Positions 1,541 to 28,968 of a stretch of DNA of 64,000 nucleotides are shown here, piece after piece. This DNA comes from Brevundimonas sp. NIBR10 (GTDB taxonomy: Bacteria; Pseudomonadota; Alphaproteobacteria; Caulobacterales; Caulobacteraceae). The stretch is taken from positions 1,550,001-1,614,000 of the forward strand of contig NZ_CP115464.1 in the NCBI RefSeq assembly GCF_027912515.1, read 5' to 3'. A program made the translations under genes and the position numbers. Positions within the stretch are counted from its first letter, which is position 1; every line of letters starts with the position of its first letter. The notes under the pieces are model-generated. The model was not told the origin of the DNA. It made no database searches and saw only the letters and a program-made list of their open reading frames with translations.

Positions 1541-4158
1541 CCGCGAAGGGCGAGCTCGACACCTATCAGGCCAAGCGCCGGTTCGCCGACACGCCCGAGC
1601 CCAAGGGCAAGAAGGCCAAGGCGAGGAAGGGCGCCCCGCTGCGCTATCTGATCCAGCGCCACGCGGCGACGCGGCTGCACTACGATTTCCGCATCGAGGT
1701 CGACGGCGTCCTGAAATCCTGGGCCGTGACCAAGGCCCCGTCGCGCGACCACACCATCAAGCGCCTGGCCGTCGAGGTCGAGGACCATCCGCTCGACTAC
1801 GGCGGGTTCGAGGGCACGATCCCGGCCGGCAACTACGGTGCCGGCACGGTCCAGATGTGGGACGAGGGCAGCTGGGAGCCCCAGGAGCCCGACCTCGACG
1901 CCGCCTTCGCCAAGGGTCAGGTCAAGATGGTCCTGCACGGCGAACGGCTGAAGGGCAAATGGGCCCTGATCCGGCTCAAGGGCGATCGGGGAAAACCGTC
2001 CAAACGCAACAACTGGCTGCTGATCAAGGAGATCGACGACTTCACCGTCGACGGCGAAGGCGATGCCAATATGGAGATCGACGCTTCGGTCACCTCGGGC
2101 CGCACCATGGCCCAGATCGCCGACGGCCGGAAACAGTGGACCTCGTCCAAGCCCACCGGCCGAAAGGCACCTCCGAAGCCGAAGGCGGCCCCCGCCCCGC
2201 TCACGAAACCCCCGGCCTTCGTCCCGATCCAGCTGTGCAAGGTCGGCGACTACCCCCCGCGCGGCACCGGCTGGGCCCATGAGATCAAGTTCGACGGTTA
2301 CCGCCTCCAGGTCGGCGTCGGCGGCGGAAGTGCGACCCTGCGCACCCGCAAGGGTCTGGACTGGTCGGATCGGTTCGCGGCCCATGCGGCCGACGCGGCG
2401 AAATGGCCCGACGGCGTCGTGGACGGCGAGCTCTGCGCCCTCGCCGACGACCACATGCCTGACTTCTCGGCGCTCCAGGCAGCGATCTCGGACGGCGAGA
2501 CCGGCGGGCTCATCTTCTTCGCCTTCGACCTGCTGTTCGACGGGCCCGAGGACCTGCGCAAACTGCCGCTCTCGCATCGCAAGGCGCGGCTCCAGGCCTA
2601 TATCGACCGCATCCCGAAGGCGGCCGCCAAACGCATCCGCTACGTCGATCATTTCGCCACGACCGGACAGGCCGTGCTCGACAGCGCCTGCCGCATGGAC
2701 CTCGAAGGCATCATCTCCAAGGACCTGACCGCCCCCTACACCGCCGGCCGATCCTCGACCTGGGTCAAGTCGAAATGCCGGGGCAGGGACGAGGTGGTGA
2801 TCGGCGGCTGGACCTCGGAGGGCGACCGCTTCCGCTCCCTGATCGTCGGCGTCCAGGACGTGGACAAGACGGCCGGCAAGGGCCTGCGTCACCTCGGCCG
2901 CGTCGGCACGGGCTATTCAGAAGCGGTGGTCAAACGGCTCCTCCCCGCCCTGAAGGCCCAGGCCGCCGACCACAGCCCCTTCGTCGGCAAGGCCGCACCG
3001 CGCCGGTCCTCCACCGGCGGCACGATCCACTGGCTCAAGCCGGTCCTGGTCGCCGAGATCGAACACGGCGGCTATACCGACAGCGGCTCCCTGCGTCAGG
3101 CCGCCTTCAAGGGCCTGCGCGAGGACAAGGCGGCCGCCGAGGTCGATGCCATGCCCCAGGCCCCCGTCGATCCCAAGGCGGCACCGGGCACCAAGGGTAC
3201 CGTCAAGGCCTCGCCCCCGCCCCAGCTGAAACTCGGCGGCAAACCCGGCAAGGTCGTCGTCGCCGGCGTCACCCTGTCCAACCCGGACAAGGTGCTGTGG
3301 CCCGGAACCGACGGTCGCCCCGACATCACCAAGGCCGACCTCGCCCGCTATTACGAGGCCGTCTCGGACCGCATCCTGCCCCATGTCGGCGACCGCCCCA
3401 CCTCGGTCATCCGCGCCCCCGAGGGCATCGGCGGCGAGACCTTCTTCCAGCGCCACGCCATGCCCGGCTCCAACCCCCGGCTGAAGCTGATCGACGTCAA
3501 CGAGCGCAAACCCTATGTCTCGGTCGTGGATGCCGGCGGCCTGGTCGCCATCGGCCAGTCCGGCGGGCTGGAACTTCATCCCTGGGGCTGCGCGCCGGGC
3601 GAGCCGGAAATCCCGGACCAGATCACCTTCGATCTCGACCCCGACGAGGGCCTGGATTTCAACGACGTGATCTCGGCCGCCGAGGTCGTAAAGACGAAAC
3701 TCGAAACCCTCGGCCTGACGCCCTTCGTCAAGACGACCGGCGGAAAGGGCCTGCACGTCGTCGTGCCGATCAGGACCGACGCCCGCAGCCGGATCACCTG
3801 GGACCAGAACAAGGCCTTCGCCAAGGCGGTCTCGGAGGCTATTCGCGCCGACGCCCCCGACCGCTTCACCACCACCCTGGCCAAGAAGGCGCGGGCAGGA
3901 AAGATCTTCCTCGACTATCTGCGCAACGGCCGGATGGCGACGGCCGTGGCCCCCTGGTCGCCGCGCGCCCGCCCAGGCGCGGGCATCGCCTTTCCGCTGT
4001 CCTGGAGCCAGGTGAGGACGGGCCTGGACCCCTCCGTCTTCAACCTCTGGAACTATGAGGCGCTGCTCGGAAAGCCCGATCCGTGGAAGGATTTTCGCGC
4101 GGCGGCGAAGAGCTTGCGGCCGGCGATCAAGGCCACAGGATCGGACATTGGCCCCTGA
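1537..4158 (+). CDS. ligD: Multidomain ATP-dependent DNA ligase LigD
   Basis: An 873-residue non-homologous end-joining ligase. Domain order is phosphoesterase (about residues 20-190, with HAATRLHYDFR and the DYGGFEGTIPAGNYG segment), ATP-dependent ligase (about 225-520, catalytic Lys251 in EIKFDGYR), and archaeo-eukaryotic-type primase/polymerase (about 570-860, metal ligands Asp699 and Asp701 in FDLDPDEG, and the KGLHVVVP strand). The protein trims, fills and seals broken ends together with Ku. It begins inside the stop of topoisomerase IB and should share its stress-type promoter. The PE-LIG-POL order is the Pseudomonas/alphaproteobacterial arrangement rather than the mycobacterial POL-PE-LIG order. 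Linkers near residues 205-220 and 540-565 are rich in Pro, Ala and Lys. Confidence 0.95.
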   Translation: MTAKGELDTYQAKRRFADTPEPKGKKAKARKGAPLRYLIQRHAATRLHYDFRIEVDGVLKSWAVTKAPSRDHTIKRLAVEVEDHPLDYGGFEGTIPAGNYGAGTVQMWDEGSWEPQEPDLDAAFAKGQVKMVLHGERLKGKWALIRLKGDRGKPSKRNNWLLIKEIDDFTVDGEGDANMEIDASVTSGRTMAQIADGRKQWTSSKPTGRKAPPKPKAAPAPLTKPPAFVPIQLCKVGDYPPRGTGWAHEIKFDGYRLQVGVGGGSATLRTRKGLDWSDRFAAHAADAAKWPDGVVDGELCALADDHMPDFSALQAAISDGETGGLIFFAFDLLFDGPEDLRKLPLSHRKARLQAYIDRIPKAAAKRIRYVDHFATTGQAVLDSACRMDLEGIISKDLTAPYTAGRSSTWVKSKCRGRDEVVIGGWTSEGDRFRSLIVGVQDVDKTAGKGLRHLGRVGTGYSEAVVKRLLPALKAQAADHSPFVGKAAPRRSSTGGTIHWLKPVLVAEIEHGGYTDSGSLRQAAFKGLREDKAAAEVDAMPQAPVDPKAAPGTKGTVKASPPPQLKLGGKPGKVVVAGVTLSNPDKVLWPGTDGRPDITKADLARYYEAVSDRILPHVGDRPTSVIRAPEGIGGETFFQRHAMPGSNPRLKLIDVNERKPYVSVVDAGGLVAIGQSGGLELHPWGCAPGEPEIPDQITFDLDPDEGLDFNDVISAAEVVKTKLETLGLTPFVKTTGGKGLHVVVPIRTDARSRITWDQNKAFAKAVSEAIRADAPDRFTTTLAKKARAGKIFLDYLRNGRMATAVAPWSPRARPGAGIAFPLSWSQVRTGLDPSVFNLWNYEALLGKPDPWKDFRAAAKSLRPAIKATGSDIGP

Positions 4159-11798: not shown

Positions 11799-12353
11799 AT
11801 GGACGCCGACATCAGTCGTCAGACTTTGACCTTAAACCTGCGCCGCGTCGCCGGCGGTGACCGTTCCGCGCTTCAGGACGTCTATGACGCGACCTCGTCG
11901 AAACTATTCGGTGTGGTCCTTCGTATCTTGAACGATCGAAGCGAGGCCGAGGACGTGCTGCAGGAAGTCTATATCAGCGTCTGGTCAAAGGCGGGCACGT
12001 TCGACGAGAACCGTGCCAGCCCGATCACCTGGCTGGCGACCATGGCCCGCAACCGCGCCATCGACCGCCAGCGCCAGGTCGGCCGTCGCACCACCCGCCC
12101 CATCGATGACGCCAACGAGGTTCCGGACGATGCCGAGGACGGCCTGGGTGCCGTGCTTCGCTCGGAACAGACCACCCGGCTGGACGTCTGCATGGACCAG
12201 CTGGAGGACGCTCAGGCCAGGGCCATCCGCACCGCCTTCTTCGAGGGCCGCACCTATGAGGACGTGGCCAAGGTGTTCGGCGTCCCGACCGGCACGATGA
12301 AGAGCTGGATCCGCCGCTCCCTGATGAAGCTGAAGGCTTGCCTGGGCGGATGA
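11799..12353 (+). CDS. ECF-family RNA polymerase sigma factor (SigK-like)
   Basis: A 184-residue sigma-70 family protein containing only regions 2 and 4. Region 2 reads LFGVVLRILNDRSEAEDVLQEVYISVW with the typical DRSEAEDVLQE core, and region 4 has the helix-turn-helix TYEDVAKVFGVPTGTMKSWI. The chosen ATG gives MDADISRQTL; an upstream start is possible but lacks family support. The partner RskA-type anti-sigma factor overlaps by four bases, the usual arrangement for membrane-controlled ECF systems. Its likely targets are its own operon and the divergent CFA-like gene, both preceded by GCATCC-N15/16-CGTAGC. Confidence 0.92.
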   Translation: MDADISRQTLTLNLRRVAGGDRSALQDVYDATSSKLFGVVLRILNDRSEAEDVLQEVYISVWSKAGTFDENRASPITWLATMARNRAIDRQRQVGRRTTRPIDDANEVPDDAEDGLGAVLRSEQTTRLDVCMDQLEDAQARAIRTAFFEGRTYEDVAKVFGVPTGTMKSWIRRSLMKLKACLGG

Positions 12354-13087
12354 CAGACACAACCGACTTCCCCTTCCCCGACGAACGCGCTGCCGAATAC
12401 GCATTGGGCGTGCTGACGGCCGAAGAACGCGCCGCCGCCGAGCGCCGCATCAAGTCCGACGCCGGTTTCGCCGATCAGGTCGCCGACTGGGACGCCCGCC
12501 TGGCCCCGATGATAGAGGCCGTGCCGCCGGTCGTGCCGCCGCGCGTCGTCTGGCTGCGCATCGCCGCGCAGCTGGGTCTGACCAGGACCCCGGCCAACGA
12601 CAATGACGGCTTCTGGGGCAATATCGCCATCTGGCGCGCCGGCACCGCCGTCTTCGCCACGGCCGCCGCCGCCGCCTTTGCCGTCGTCCTGCTGAACCCC
12701 GGCGCGACCCCGATCGCCCCGACCCCGGCTACGCCCGTCCCGACGATCCAGCCCATGTCGGTCGGAATGCTCAAGTCGGCCGAGGACGGCCCGGTCAGTT
12801 TCGTCGTCACCCTGGATCGCCAGAACCAGAAGCTGATCATCGCCCCCATCTCCGGCGCGCCCGAGGGGCATTCGTTCGAGATGTGGATGCTGCCCGACGG
12901 TTCGCCACCGGTCTCCATGGGCTCCATGGACGGCGCCGAGGTCGTGGTCATCGACGCCGCCCGCCTGTTGGGCGTCAACCCCGACAACCCTCCGGCCCTC
13001 GCCGTCTCCGTCGAACCCCGCGGCGGCTCCCCCACCGGCCTCCCCACCGGCCCGGTCATCGCCAGCGGGGCGCTGCAGCCGGTCTAG
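12350..13087 (+). CDS. RskA-type transmembrane anti-sigma factor
   Basis: A 245-residue anti-sigma factor. The cytoplasmic N-terminus (ERAAEYALGVLTAEERAAAE) is the anti-sigma domain, a single membrane helix lies around residues 97-118 (AVFATAAAAAFAVVLLNP), and the outer part carries the RskA fold with HSFEMWMLPDGSPPVSMG. No HxxxCxxC zinc motif is visible in the N-terminus, in contrast to ChrR-type zinc anti-sigma factors. It starts inside the stop of the sigma gene. It would hold the sigma factor at the membrane until an envelope signal, perhaps proteolysis, releases it. It is the last gene of the lipid operon. Confidence 0.9.
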   Translation: MTDTTDFPFPDERAAEYALGVLTAEERAAAERRIKSDAGFADQVADWDARLAPMIEAVPPVVPPRVVWLRIAAQLGLTRTPANDNDGFWGNIAIWRAGTAVFATAAAAAFAVVLLNPGATPIAPTPATPVPTIQPMSVGMLKSAEDGPVSFVVTLDRQNQKLIIAPISGAPEGHSFEMWMLPDGSPPVSMGSMDGAEVVVIDAARLLGVNPDNPPALAVSVEPRGGSPTGLPTGPVIASGALQPV

Positions 13088-13144
13088 GGAAACGCATGGA
13101 CCTCTATGAGCAGGCCCCCTAGTCTCGGGTGTCCGGAGGTTGCG

Positions 13145-13432
13145 ATGCCGAAGCCCGATAGCCAACCTGAAAGTCCTGTAGACGGTCCCGAAGAGCGGGC
13201 TGCCAGTCTGCTGAATGGCATCATGGTGATGGCGCTCGCGCTTTGCCTGGCGGCCTTTGCCGTGTGGGTGTTGGCGGCCTTCTCGATGCCGATTCTCATT
13301 GGCCGTTCGCCTTGGGTTTGGAGCTGGGACACAGCGCACCGGCTGCTTCTCCCCATCGTCGTCTTGCCGACTGCGTTCTCTATGCTCCGCTGGGGACATC
13401 GAATGTTCCGAACCAGGACCAGCGTCGGCTGA
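13145..13432 (+). CDS. Small two-helix membrane protein (hypothetical)
   Basis: A 95-residue protein that starts at an ATG five bases after a good ribosome-binding site (GGAGG). Two hydrophobic segments are visible, about residues 27-50 (IMVMALALCLAAFAVWVLAA) and 67-80, with a Pro-rich acidic N-terminus (PKPDSQPESPVDGPEE) and a basic C-terminus. I do not recognise the family. It follows the anti-sigma gene by about 60 bases and could be co-transcribed with it. An upstream start at 13106 is in frame but has no ribosome-binding site. Confidence 0.55.
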   Translation: MPKPDSQPESPVDGPEERAASLLNGIMVMALALCLAAFAVWVLAAFSMPILIGRSPWVWSWDTAHRLLLPIVVLPTAFSMLRWGHRMFRTRTSVG

Positions 13433-13571
13433 CAAAGCCATAGCAAATAGGCTGCTCAACGCCGCCGCGTTATCCAACTTCAACGCGCCAATCCCTTATC
13501 CTGCAACGGATCGTGCCGATCTCGGCCTGAGTTTCCCGCCCTGGTCCGCCGGTATGTTAGACTGGGGCGAA

Positions 13572-13585
13572 CACGGTCTTTGACA
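13572..13585 (+). repeat. 14-base motif shared with 25832-25845
   Basis: CACGGTCTTTGACA, containing a TTGACA-like hexamer, stands 32 bases before the GANTC array. The identical 14 bases occur at 25832-25845, eight bases before a long inverted repeat. Both lie in non-coding DNA. Confidence 0.4.
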
Positions 13586-13612
13586 TCCCGCGCCGTCGCA
13601 CCTCCGATCCTT

Positions 13613-13853
13613 AGTCCGGACTCAACGGACTCAACGGACTCTTTTTCGAGTCCGGACTCAACGGACTCAACGGACTCTTTTTTCGAGTCCGGACTCTTCG
13701 GACTCTTCGGACTCTTCGGACTCTTCGGACTCTTCGGACTCTTCGGACTCTTCGGACTCTTCGGACTCTTCGGACTCTTCGGACTCTTCGGACTCTTCGG
13801 ACTCTTCGGACTCTTCGGACTCTTCGGACTCTAATTTTCGAGTCCGGGGAGTC
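13613..13853. repeat. Tandem 9-bp repeat array carrying 26 GANTC sites
   Basis: The gap 13433-13871 has no convincing gene and is dominated by this array. Three modules are built on the hexamer GGACTC. Modules 1 (13618-13653) and 2 (13654-13690) each hold three GGACTC hexamers, the first two extended by AAC, then a T-run and GAGTCC. Module 3 (13691-13845) has fifteen GGACTCTTC units, a last GGACTC, TAATTTTC and GAGTCC. Every hexamer contains GACTC or GAGTC, so each is a GANTC methylation site; I count 26 including one at 13849. GGACTC and GAGTCC are complementary, so modules can fold into hairpins, and GAGTCCGGACTC palindromes sit at the module joins. The units are read as Gly-Leu-Phe repeats on one strand and Glu-Ser-Glu repeats on the other, neither with gene-like context. 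Confidence 0.9.
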
Positions 13854-13871
13854 CAGCGCACCGATCGTGGC

Positions 13872-14861
13872 CTACGCCACCCACCCATGCCTTTTTCCGA
13901 ACCGCAGCGCGATCTCGGGCCAGGTGTCGGCGGGCTTTCCGGCGATCAGGCGCACCCCGAAGCCGTGGCCGCCTTCCTCGAACAGATGGGCCTCGGCCGG
14001 CACCTTGGCGCGCCGCAGGGCTGACAGCAGGTTCAGACTGTTCTCGACCACCACCGACGCATCGTCGATGGCGTGGATCAACCAGACCGGCGGCGCGCCC
14101 GTCCAGTCCATCTCCTCCAGCGAATGGGCCTTGATCCGCTCCGGCGAAGGCGCGGTCCCCAGCAACTGCTCGCGCGACCCCGCATGGACGAACGGATCGG
14201 CCATGGTCGCCACCGGATACATCAGGATACTGAAATCCGGCCGCAACGACACTTCGTCATGGGCGTCCACCGGCGTGTAGGCCGCCGTCGTCTCGGCCGT
14301 CGCCCATCCCGCCAGATGCCCCCCGGCCGAGGCCCCCAGCACCGCCACCCGCGCCGGGTCCAATCCGAACTCGGCGGCCCGCGACCGCACCATCCGCACC
14401 GCCCTCTGCGCGTCCTGCAACGGCGCCTCGGCCCCCGCTGCCCAGCCGTCCGCGGGCAGGCGATAGCGCAGCACGAAACAGGTCACCCCGGCTTCGGCGA
14501 AGACTCGCGCGACATCCATCCCTTCCTTGTCCACGACGGACCATTTGTACCCGCCCCCGGGGATCAGGATCATCGACGCCCCGTTCGGCGTGATCGGCCG
14601 CATGACCGTCAGGATCGGGTCGGTCGTGTACTGGGCGAACCGGTCATGGAAGGCCGGGTCCGTCGACCGCTCAGTGACGACCGGCGTGACCGTGACCCGC
14701 TCCCCGCCCGGCGCACCGTTCGGCCACAGTTTCCACACCTCGGTCGGGTCCGGCGGGGCCAGCAGCGGCCCCGGCCTCATCTGGGCCAGGGCTGACGGGG
14801 CAGACGCTCCCCCGGCCACGGCGGCGGCGAACCCGAACAGGCTGCGGCGATCGATCCTCAT
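13872..14861 (-). CDS. Tat-exported alpha/beta-hydrolase (acetyl-xylan-esterase-like)
   Basis: A 329-residue hydrolase. The N-terminus RIDRRSLFGFAAAVAGG is a twin-arginine signal ending near an ALAQ cleavage site. The fold shows an oxyanion-loop GGGYKW after the first strand, the nucleophile in GASAGGHLAGW, the acid in HAIDDASV and the catalytic His in EEGGHGFGV. This layout is that of the BD-FAE/acetylesterase group, which removes acetyl or similar groups from plant polysaccharides or their oligomers. It is the last gene of a minus-strand operon with a carboxylesterase, a hexuronate transporter and an FAH-family hydratase, so acetylated pectin is a likely source of substrate. Confidence 0.85.
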   Translation of the reverse strand: MRIDRRSLFGFAAAVAGGASAPSALAQMRPGPLLAPPDPTEVWKLWPNGAPGGERVTVTPVVTERSTDPAFHDRFAQYTTDPILTVMRPITPNGASMILIPGGGYKWSVVDKEGMDVARVFAEAGVTCFVLRYRLPADGWAAGAEAPLQDAQRAVRMVRSRAAEFGLDPARVAVLGASAGGHLAGWATAETTAAYTPVDAHDEVSLRPDFSILMYPVATMADPFVHAGSREQLLGTAPSPERIKAHSLEEMDWTGAPPVWLIHAIDDASVVVENSLNLLSALRRAKVPAEAHLFEEGGHGFGVRLIAGKPADTWPEIALRFGKRHGWVA

Positions 14862-25831: not shown

Positions 25832-25845
25832 CACGGTCTTTGACA
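25832..25845 (+). repeat. 14-base motif shared with 13572-13585
   Basis: CACGGTCTTTGACA, identical to the copy ahead of the GANTC array, here eight bases before the left arm of the long inverted repeat. Confidence 0.4.
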
Positions 25846-25853
25846 ACTCAATC

Positions 25854-25981
25854 CCGCTCATCCCGGCGAAAGCCGGGACCCAGTCCTTTGGGCGATCGAT
25901 GCCGTCAGTTTTCCACCAGCGGCGATCCCACACCTGTGACCCCCAAAAGCACTGGGTCCCGGCTTTCGCCGGGATGAGCGG
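25854..25981. repeat. Long perfect inverted repeat between convergent genes
   Basis: The 31-base arms 25854-25884 and 25951-25981 are exact reverse complements, separated by 66 bases. Each arm contains its own small hairpin, CCCGGC-GAAA-GCCGGG, with a GNRA-type loop. The element fills the gap between the LamG gene and the convergent ileS, whose stop follows eight bases later. Similar CATCCCGGCGAAAGCCGGGA sequences are, from memory, very common intergenic repeats in Caulobacterales and related genomes. It may work as a bidirectional terminator, and it resembles a REP/MITE-type element without a transposase. Confidence 0.85.
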
Positions 25982-25989
25982 AATGTGGG

Positions 25990-28968
25990 TTACCCCGCCC
26001 GCTGCTGATCCCACCACCGCACCGCATCTGCATCGCGGGCGCTCAACTCGGGGTAGTCGGGGTCGGACCCCACGTCCGGCACCCGACGCCAGGAGCGGGC
26101 GCATTTGGGGTGGTCCAGAATCGGTTTCGCGACGACCTCAACGTTGATCACTTCCAGGGCCTGGAAAGTCTCGACCGCTTCGGGGCTGATACCGGCGACG
26201 ATGCTTGCGACGCTCGACCGGAAGATGTCGGCCACGTCTTGTGCCGCGAGCCCCTCAAACGCTGCCAGAAGTTGATCGTCCGCAATGTAGACGGTCAGTT
26301 CGGCGTCAAGGCCGGTTCCGATACGCTTCTCGCGGCGTTCGACTTCCAGGGCGCCATTGGTGACCAGCAACACGCGTTGGACCTTCTCCCAACGATGCTT
26401 CTCGTTCCAGTTCTGCCACTCACTGGGCGTCTCCGGAATCACCCGCGCACAGTTCGTCCCCGCCTCCGGGAAGCGCGTCAGCCACGCCTCCTCCATGGTG
26501 AACGGCGTCAGCGGGGCCAGCCAGGCGGTCAGCCGCATGAACACCTCGTCCATCACCGTCCGAGCCGCACGGCGGCGGATCGCATCCGGACGGTCGCAGT
26601 ACAGGCTGTCCTTGCGGATATCGAAATACAGGGCCGACAGGTCGTTGGCGCAGAACTCCAGCACCGGCCGGACCACGTCCTGGAAGCGGTATTCGGCGTA
26701 GGCCTTCCTCACCTGGCCATCCAGTTCGTGCAGCCGATGCAGCACGAACTTCTCAAGAGGCGGCATCTGATCGTAGTCGGTCAGTCGCTCGTCCTCGTCG
26801 AACCCGACCAGGGCACCCAGCAGATAGCGGACGGTGTTCCTCAGCTTGCGATAGGCATCTACCGTCGTCTGAAGGATCGTCTTGCCGATCCGCTGATCGT
26901 CCGAATAGTCCACCAGCGCGACCCAAAGGCGCAGGATGTCGGCCCCGCTCTCCTTGATGATGACGGCGGGGTCGGTCGTATTGCCCTTGGACTTGGACAT
27001 CTTCTCCCCCTTCTCGTCGAGGGTGAAGCCGTGGGTCAGGACCGCATTGAACGGTGCCCGGCCGCGCGTGCCGGAGCCCTCCAGCAGGGACGACTGGAAC
27101 CAGCCGCGATGCTGGTCCGACCCTTCCAGATACAGGTCCGCCGGCCAGTGCGAGGGCCGGTCGCCGACGTATCCATTGGCCGGATCGCGGGGCTCGATGG
27201 TGAAGGCATGGGTCGATCCGGAGTCGAACCAGACGTCCAGAATGTCCTCGACCTTCTCGTACCGCGCCGGGTCGTGGACACCCAGGAAATCGCTGTCCGG
27301 CGCGCTGAACCAGATGTCGGCACCGTGCTCGGCGATGGCCTTCAGGATGCGGGCGTCGACCTCGGGGTCATGCAGGGGCTGGCCGGTGTGCTTGTCCACG
27401 AACATGGCCAGAGGCGTACCCCAGGCGCGCTGGCGGCTGATCAGCCAGTCGGGCCGGCCCTCGACCATGGAGCGGATGCGGTTGCGGCCCGCCTCGGGGT
27501 GGAAGTCGGTGTGGTCGATGGCCTTCAGCGCCGTCTCGCGCAGGGTGTCGCCGTCCTTGAGCGGGGCATCCATGCGGATGAACCACTGCGGCGTATTGCG
27601 GAAGATCACCGGCGCCTTGGACCGCCACGAGTGCGGATAGGTGTGTTCGATCCGACCGCGCGCCAGCAGCGTCCCGGCCTCGATCAGCCTGTCCATCACC
27701 GCACCGTTCGCAGGACCGAACTTGCCCGTCTTCTTGCCCTCGGTCTCCAGCACCTTCAGCCCCGCGAACAGGGGCACGCCGGGATAGTAGGCACCGTCCG
27801 GATCGACCGTGTCGGGCACCTCGTGATGACCGTGGGCCTTCCACACCTCGAAGTCGTCGGCGCCGTGGCCGGGCGCAGTGTGGACGAAGCCGGTCCCCGC
27901 GTCGTCGGTGACGTGATCTCCGGCCAGCAGGGGCACCGAGAAGCCATAGCCCGGATCGAGCGCCGCCAGCGGATGGGCGCACTCCAGACCCGACGGATTG
28001 AGGTCGGACACCCGGGTCCAGGTCGCGATCTTCGCTGCCCTGAACACATCCTCGGCCAGCTTGTCGGCGACGATCAGACGGTCTCCGGCCGCAGCCCAGG
28101 GCTCGAACTCCAGCCCCTGTTCCATCGACTGGACCTCGTACAGGCCATAGGCGATCTCGGGCCCGTAGCTGATCGCCCGGTTGGCCGGGATGGTCCAGGG
28201 CGTGGTGGTCCAGATCACGATCGACGGGGTCGCGTGGCGGAAGGCCAGCAGGTCGTCGTCATGGTCGTCCGACGCCGCGATCACCGGGAACTTGACCCAG
28301 ATCGTGGGCGAGACGTGGTCGTGGTACTCGATCTCGGCGTCGGCCAGCGCCGTGCGTTCGACCGGCGACCACATCACGGGCTTGGAGCCGCGATACAGCT
28401 GACCCGAATTCTTGAACCGGTGGAACTCGGCGACGATCTTCGCCTCGGTCGAGAAGTCCATTGTGGCATAGCGATTGTCGAAGTCGCCGGTGATCCCCAG
28501 ACGCTTGAACTGGGCCCCCTGCACGTCGATCCAGCCGGCGGCATAGTCGCGGCAGGCCTTGCGGAATTCCTCCTTGGAGACCTCGTCCTTGCGCCGGCCC
28601 TTGGCCCGGTACTGTTCCTCGATCTTCCACTCGATGGGCAGGCCGTGGCAGTCCCAGCCGGGGACGTAGTCGACGTCATAGCCCAGCAGGAAGCGCGACC
28701 GGACCACGAAATCCTTCAGCGTCTTGTTCAGCGCATGGCCGATGTGGATGTCGCCGTTGGCATAGGGCGGGCCGTCGTGCAGCACATAGAGCGGCGCGCC
28801 CTGGACCTGACGTTCGGCGCGCAGGGTCGCATACAGGTCGCCCCACTGCTCCAGGATCGCCGGCTCCTTCTGCGGCAGGCCGCCCCGCATCGGGAACGGC
28901 GTCTCGGGCAGGAAGACCGTCTCGCGGTAATCGCGGGCGGCGGGGGCGTTGGATTGGTCGTCGGCCAT
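25990..28968 (-). CDS. ileS: Isoleucyl-tRNA synthetase
   Basis: A 992-residue class I synthetase. The ATP motif is GDIHIGHALNK (HIGH), the second signature is KMSKSKG, and the editing domain CP1 contains the WTTTPWTIPANR segment. The C-terminal region that binds zinc in E. coli IleRS is degenerate: CARSWRRVPDVGSD keeps one Cys where the full motif has four, which I believe is usual in alphaproteobacteria. It charges tRNA-Ile in the cytoplasm. ribF lies upstream on the same strand, but two plus-strand genes separate them, and lspA, the usual downstream neighbour, is absent from its expected place. Confidence 0.97.
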   Translation of the reverse strand: MADDQSNAPAARDYRETVFLPETPFPMRGGLPQKEPAILEQWGDLYATLRAERQVQGAPLYVLHDGPPYANGDIHIGHALNKTLKDFVVRSRFLLGYDVDYVPGWDCHGLPIEWKIEEQYRAKGRRKDEVSKEEFRKACRDYAAGWIDVQGAQFKRLGITGDFDNRYATMDFSTEAKIVAEFHRFKNSGQLYRGSKPVMWSPVERTALADAEIEYHDHVSPTIWVKFPVIAASDDHDDDLLAFRHATPSIVIWTTTPWTIPANRAISYGPEIAYGLYEVQSMEQGLEFEPWAAAGDRLIVADKLAEDVFRAAKIATWTRVSDLNPSGLECAHPLAALDPGYGFSVPLLAGDHVTDDAGTGFVHTAPGHGADDFEVWKAHGHHEVPDTVDPDGAYYPGVPLFAGLKVLETEGKKTGKFGPANGAVMDRLIEAGTLLARGRIEHTYPHSWRSKAPVIFRNTPQWFIRMDAPLKDGDTLRETALKAIDHTDFHPEAGRNRIRSMVEGRPDWLISRQRAWGTPLAMFVDKHTGQPLHDPEVDARILKAIAEHGADIWFSAPDSDFLGVHDPARYEKVEDILDVWFDSGSTHAFTIEPRDPANGYVGDRPSHWPADLYLEGSDQHRGWFQSSLLEGSGTRGRAPFNAVLTHGFTLDEKGEKMSKSKGNTTDPAVIIKESGADILRLWVALVDYSDDQRIGKTILQTTVDAYRKLRNTVRYLLGALVGFDEDERLTDYDQMPPLEKFVLHRLHELDGQVRKAYAEYRFQDVVRPVLEFCANDLSALYFDIRKDSLYCDRPDAIRRRAARTVMDEVFMRLTAWLAPLTPFTMEEAWLTRFPEAGTNCARVIPETPSEWQNWNEKHRWEKVQRVLLVTNGALEVERREKRIGTGLDAELTVYIADDQLLAAFEGLAAQDVADIFRSSVASIVAGISPEAVETFQALEVINVEVVAKPILDHPKCARSWRRVPDVGSDPDYPELSARDADAVRWWDQQRAG

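Follow-up and report, generated by a model that had tools for sequence, protein, structure and literature searches.

Related repeats and boxA leaders

The CIR repeats of Caulobacter crescentus were reportedly described by Chen and Shapiro in 2003. They are organized as inverted repeats, and neither boxA nor 9-bp tandem units are known to be part of them. In the accessible portion of one account they are dispersed, reported as strictly intergenic, and associated with sites of the methyltransferase CcrM, in a relative of Brevundimonas (PMC10969869). They can be compared with the boxA-headed element considered here by description only, and GANTC, the CcrM site, is not constant in the latter. BoxA is known chiefly from rRNA and from a small number of mRNAs, and also from CRISPR-array transcripts. 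In the available sections of a survey of the boxA leaders of rRNA, rpsJ and other transcripts, the motif heads an untranslated stretch, as it does here; the survey, which in those sections did not consider non-coding RNAs, differs in its subject from a predicted transcript of ~100 nt that is multi-copy, dispersed, and ends in tandem hairpin units (PMC5725501).

Two other systems are partly similar. According to excerpts of PMC11150451, terGTA of C. crescentus, a related bacterium, is a terminator made up of three direct repeats of 150 bp; the likeness is in tandem repeats that contain inverted repeats and halt transcription, but the unit is 150 bp rather than 9 bp, there is a single place, and GafZ allows read-through. 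The text of that paper nowhere mentions boxA. The BrickBuilt MITE of P. gingivalis, an unrelated organism, is likewise a dispersed element with a short tandem array, but no boxA/promoter module is seen in the available part of its description (PMC4596501). In open-access PMC text, judged by titles and the starts of abstracts, no description of a family of boxA-headed arrays was found.

The array and its neighborhood

The window is the whole stretch of DNA analyzed, 64,000 nt from Brevundimonas sp. NIBR10. The features around the array are:

12338..13087, + strand: anti-sigma factor gene (RskA_C), upstream (Pfam PF10099, E 3.4e-19)
13106..13432, + strand: small ORF matching no Pfam family; the relative L179 shows none between the same two neighbors
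13488..13513, + strand: degenerate copy of a palindrome (CCAATCCCTTGC-N3-GCAAGGGATTG type), from an alignment of 14 copies
13555..13563, + strand: extended -10-like promoter element TGTTAGACT, from conservation in other copies and the genus-wide position of the hexamer
13574..13585, + strand: boxA CGGTCTTTGACA (Nus-factor antitermination signal by motif)
13586..13612, + strand: leader from boxA to array, from sequence
13613..13653, + strand: module 1 (AGTCC arm, three GGACTC units, TTTTTC, GAGTCC arm)
13654..13690, + strand: module 2 (three GGACTC units, TTTTTTC, GAGTCC arm)
13691..13854, + strand: module 3 (16 GGACTC units, TAATTTTC, GAGTCC GGG GAGTCC)
13872..14861, - strand: alpha/beta hydrolase (BD-FAE / Abhydrolase_3), convergent neighbor

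The original prediction described a dense, mostly 9-bp-spaced cluster of 26 GANTC sites in three modules of one plan, and this description is borne out. Positions 13613–13854 (242 bp) hold 26 sites, 22 GACTC and four GAGTC, with exactly 9 bp between successive sites in 20 of 25 steps. The rest of the window has 63 in 63,758 bp, or 0.99/kb, where base composition alone would give 3.04/kb, and no other 242-bp stretch of the window (step 20 bp) has more than two. Module 3 had been read as fifteen units; there are 15 copies of GGACTCTTC, but a closing GGACTC makes 16 units. These are probably the product of slippage expansion, an alternative raised at the outset, and unit number does vary, both from one orthologous array to another and across the 16 copies in the genome. 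Two ORFs over the array (84 and 73 aa) were considered as a translated repeat and not taken as genes: they run across it because 9 is a multiple of 3; T-tract length is not constant (5 or 6 T), and what varies within the units is a pair of adjacent spacer bases.

Relatives were sought through the neighboring hydrolase. Among 80 loci, the best seven named ones are all Brevundimonas, the nearest being an uncultured Brevundimonas sp. with 95% protein identity (L179), and the remainder includes other Caulobacteraceae and Sphingomonas. A check proposed with the prediction, for the array at the same place in relatives, came out negative in L179, where array and small ORF are both missing beside the orthologous gene. 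A different repeat stands there instead, and since it occupies the place of the window array this is not a clean empty site. At 25834–25990 the window itself has a second CGGTCTTTGACA, which precedes a long inverted repeat (CTCATCCCGGCGAAAGCCGGGACCCAG ... and its complement); by eye, the same inverted repeat fills the orthologous array place in L179.

Copies across the genome

The genome, a single contig of 4.0 Mb, has 76 matches to the pattern GGACTCNNCGGACTC, 42 on the + and 34 on the - strand, at 16 places; reversed-pattern controls gave 0 and 1. A stretch of about 110 bp before the array is common to 14 of the 16 places. With some variation in each part, it contains in order AACTTCG, the palindrome CCAATCCCTTGC-N3-GCAAGGGATTG, the block GACCTGGCGCC, GTGGTAGACTG as an extended -10, and CGGTCTTTGACA. 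A sequence model of this stretch (R1), built from 14 copies with the window's own among them, finds 15 strong copies (at least 67 bits) in the genome, the window's included, 14 of which had built the model. The window copy scores 67.3 bits (13476–13586, E 3.8e-18). At 14 of the 16 array places the upstream element reaches at least 67 bits, 13 of these copies having been used to build R1 and one, L044, not. A TCTTTGA boxA core is present at 13 of the array places sharing the upstream element; L039 and L050 are the two of the 16 arrays that are not boxA-led. Judged by these copies, the window array belongs to a dispersed intergenic element, of which it makes up the 3' portion.

The gene downstream of the array is on the element's strand in eight cases and on the opposite strand in eight (hand count from script gene calls). 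A leader of the downstream gene was ruled out on this basis, and the even split fits a self-contained unit. Rfam gave nothing at gathering score on the window; on eight other loci it gave four matches with E up to 1, all of them lying outside the elements. One element query found no match in plasmids and another found none in phages. Control by GafY/GafZ was also considered and set aside: CTGGCGC, like half of the GafZ element in the excerpted text of PMC11150451, is found in several upstream copies, but is only 7 bases in a GC-rich genome.

Some loci have features of their own. In L050 the array (2977–3052) overlaps the end of a real-looking ORF on the - strand (2962–3519), behind the palindrome-promoter; it lies at the ORF's 3' end, in its reading frame, and encodes a serine-aspartate repeat tail. 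At L041 and L048 the genes behind the two element copies begin alike (MPTFTGTAGDDTLTGG...), which suggests a segmental duplication.

Promoter and boxA

A congener (L122, RF00177) has the sequence CGGTCTTTGACAT ahead of its 16S rRNA, and in this genome a boxA (CGGTCTTTGAAA, also given as CGGTCTTTGAAAT) lies 58 nt before the start of S10 (rpsJ/NusE; L056, PF00338, E 1.2e-38). Because it is found before both genes, the CGGTCTTTGACA motif is, by its match to these leaders, the boxA of Brevundimonas. A 16S-primer pattern had no match in the genome itself, no rRNA leader of its own was located, and the rRNA boxA was taken from the congener instead. An antitermination role for the boxA of the element would follow from what is established for boxA elsewhere.

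In comparisons of two species (G000 and G095), made on copies other than the window's, the extended -10 is 95.6% identical (nine copies), boxA 93.8% (eight copies) and the palindrome 91.0%, against 79.3% for the stretch from -10 to boxA and 82.5% and 85.0% for the other stretches between and after them. One copy, L044, lacks boxA, yet its -10-to-array stretch is identical in both species (63/63). Lack of boxA evidently did not relax this copy, which a boxA-headed reading does not explain.

Distribution in the genus

The genus set was drawn from 106 distinct sites with the exact 13-mer CGGTCTTTGACAT in fetched loci; it left out G042:C150 and variant boxA sites. Removal of three rRNA leaders left 103, of which 99 have 250 nt downstream. 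A 6-mer repeated at a distance of exactly 9 is present downstream of boxA at 64 of the 99, compared to 22 for distance 8 and 32 for distance 10. Controls for distance 9 gave 20/96 upstream, 21/64 farther downstream and 9/99 in base-shuffled sequence, above zero partly because coding DNA repeats with period 3. The T-run is more distinctive (74/99 after boxA; 9/96 upstream, 1/64 farther downstream, 5/99 base-shuffled), as is the hairpin whose loop holds the T-run (46/99; 0/96, 1/64 and 0/99, respectively). On the opposite strand such hairpins are found at only three of 99 sites, an asymmetry that argues for RNA over a strand-neutral DNA site. The 46 hairpins have 41 distinct arm strings; of the 46, 22 have a TGCAC core, 15 GGAC and nine neither (hand count). 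A terminator-like stem directly precedes the T-run at 26 of 99 sites (2/96 upstream, 6/99 on the reverse strand), while 50 dinucleotide shuffles gave a mean of 3.5 and a maximum of 9. On the other side of boxA, a -10-like (TATAAT-like) hexamer lies 5–12 nt before it at 56 of 102 sites, but 25–32 nt before it at just seven of 102. The order promoter, boxA, 9-nt units, T-loop hairpin recurs across the genus while the units change.

By site, 65 of 103 have a 9-bp repeat and 38 do not; a few of the 65 resemble chance repeats in coding DNA. Unit types are mixed within some genomes, e.g., G019 and G028. Matches to the GGACTC array itself were found in 23 of 121 genus genomes, with the highest numbers in G000 (76), G095 (45), G086 (21) and G066 (11). 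Of 26 loci read in other genera, eight are rRNA leaders by script, and by eye five more are rRNA-like and three are S10-like leaders; no 9-bp array was seen by eye in up to 170 nt at these loci.

Turnover of units between species

At four pairs of orthologous places, with both flanks 79–93% identical, the units differ: CGGACACAT in L121 vs. AAATGGAAC in L302, TTGGACTCG in L284 vs. AATTGCACT in L288, CGGACACAT in L272 vs. AATTAGACTC in L301 (read by eye), and L141/L144. In this last pair, with flanks of 85 and 93%, the longest repeat is CGGACGCTT, without GANTC, in L141 (G034) and CCGGACTCG, with GANTC, in L144 (G053); the L141 stretch is not itself free of GANTC, having single GGACTC copies nearby.

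Nine of the ten fetched G095 arrays are orthologous to arrays in the genome studied here, with differing unit number and spacers. For the remaining one, L262, the orthologous place is L089 (89% over 3.2 kb), which retains no GGACTC pair. With all ten at orthologous places, most copies appear to be old. By blastn, G095 copies are ~69–83% identical to non-orthologous copies of this genome over 180–290 bp, short rows covering only the array being higher. Where unit and matching arms have switched at the same genomic place, they offer a natural experiment on hairpin evolution.

Folding of the modules

By script, 44 modules were found in 26 arrays, 28 with an exact upstream GAGTCC arm and 39 with a downstream arm (at most one mismatch). 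Where a two-unit module has a matching 5' arm (three cases), the pairing probability is 1.0, which amounts to a textbook terminator stem. With more units, pairing of the upstream arm with the unit beside the T-tract falls to a mean probability of 0.09 (n=3) or 0.08 (n=4). Since in modules with at least three units the upstream arm tends to pair with an earlier unit, while the last unit pairs across the T-tract, many modules are not textbook intrinsic terminators, and unit number could tune termination. RNA folding of six examples from this genome was no better than that of dinucleotide shuffles (z +0.10 to -1.87). Pairing of units with arms is supported by their matched changes between species.

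Possible interpretations

With moderate confidence, the array is read as the 3' portion of a short noncoding transcription unit headed by boxA, one of a dispersed family. RNA polymerase would start at a promoter with its -10 typically 5–12 nt before boxA, and the presumed transcript, from a promoter whose anatomy is backed by conservation, would begin at or near boxA. Nus factors would load there, given the identity of this boxA with those of rRNA and S10. After ~30 nt the RNA would enter the modules of 9-nt units, of which there are one to three; within a module one unit may pair with the complementary arm across the U-tract and often another with the upstream arm, with termination or pausing expected at these hairpin/U-tract modules. 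Units would gain and lose copies by slippage, and unit and arms appear to be replaced together between species, which is why GGACTC, and hence GANTC, can be regarded as the version belonging to this lineage. Points against this boxA-headed reading are the boxA sites without a 9-bp repeat, the two arrays not led by boxA, the mixed unit types of some genomes, folding no better than that of shuffled sequence, the many modules unlike textbook terminators, and the consideration that a transcript of ~100 nt would hardly need boxA against Rho.

The alternatives each have something in their favor. That the 26 GANTC sites were selected as a CcrM methylation sink or timer, or as a landing pad for GcrA, as originally proposed, now seems very improbable, despite a GANTC density far above background and the over-representation of GANTC in intergenic DNA of CcrM-bearing Alphaproteobacteria noted in the available part of PMC3973325. 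In a set of 154 units of this lineage, seeded on exact GGACTC pairs, 151 are GGACTC; this near-invariance of the core could be taken as support, but the three variants each destroy GANTC, and the N of the site never changes in 154 units, the conserved core being the 7-mer CGGACTC (in the spacer, variation falls on the first two bases, and 114 of 115 have C as the third). CcrM would leave N free. An invariant N together with variants that break GANTC fits CGGACTC/GAGTCCG pairing rather than a methylase site. Across the genus GANTC is found in just 14 of 65 sites with the 9-bp repeat (seven of 56 outside this genome), and 21 of 27 genomes have none in their repeat-bearing sites, so most such sites elsewhere keep the same architecture without it; the L141/L144 pair shows both kinds of unit at one orthologous place, and L179 has no array beside the orthologous gene. 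As for GcrA, no array site fits the C. crescentus motif YGAKTCK, for which, in the excerpted source, B. subvibrioides has no preference (PMC7987155). GANTC is better seen as incidental, a by-product of the 9-bp unit of this lineage as its changes across the genus indicate, rather than a stand-alone CcrM feature. The sites would probably be methylated if CcrM is active, and even so conspicuous a cluster of CcrM sites need not reflect selection for methylation. An array of 9-bp-spaced half-sites with an AT-rich center, bound as DNA by a species-specific protein, is also improbable. The fixed spacing, conserved core and variable 2-nt spacer would suit it, as would the sharing of a unit type within a genome (CGGACA in 7/7 repeat-bearing sites of G008, TTGCAC in 7/9 of G038), but unit types are mixed in other genomes, and a DNA-binding site needs no bias of T-loop hairpins to the boxA strand. 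A MITE-like selfish repeat, spread with its promoter and boxA, of no host function and with arrays as slippage by-products, is unlikely, though it deserves more weight. Paralogous copies are found at many, mostly intergenic, places, presence differs between relatives at the window place, and the palindrome has spread without boxA as well. Against this, inspection of the aligned copies by eye showed neither terminal inverted repeats nor target duplications, the -10, boxA and palindrome are better conserved than the sequence around them, the orthology of the G095 arrays indicates that most copies are old, arms change along with units, and the single plasmid and phage queries found nothing.

Any single function for the boxA-headed units is considered much less certain than their anatomy. 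The most likely role would be that of a terminated noncoding RNA whose effect comes either from boxA, by binding or titrating Nus factors, or from its hairpins; possible roles include Nus-factor titration or recruitment, a hairpin-bound regulator, and no host function at all. A more specific scheme, of multi-copy Brevundimonas noncoding RNAs with a boxA start and species-specific 9-nt hairpin ends, whose units are replaced in step across loci in some genomes and so imply a co-evolving trans-acting partner or Nus-factor titration, is put forward tentatively and is rather doubtful as it stands. If one genus does have many non-rRNA boxA-headed units, a set of small RNAs would be served by Nus factors or would titrate them.

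The palindrome away from boxA

The palindrome is also dispersed in the genome at places without boxA. Among 15 further places viewed, the palindrome-promoter stands before a long conserved block (CTTCGTCCCGTCGCGGGGAAGGGCGCAAGGCCTTGCGATCTTGTTGCGG...) at seven (L077, L081, L082, L083, L087, L088 and L091). By eye this block resembles a noncoding RNA of ~300 nt; Rfam gave no match over it. At L078, L080 and L086 the palindrome-promoter precedes phage-like genes, whose products have, respectively, a weak match to terminase small subunit, a weak match to a DNA-binding protein, and a match to DUF2793 / tail protein.
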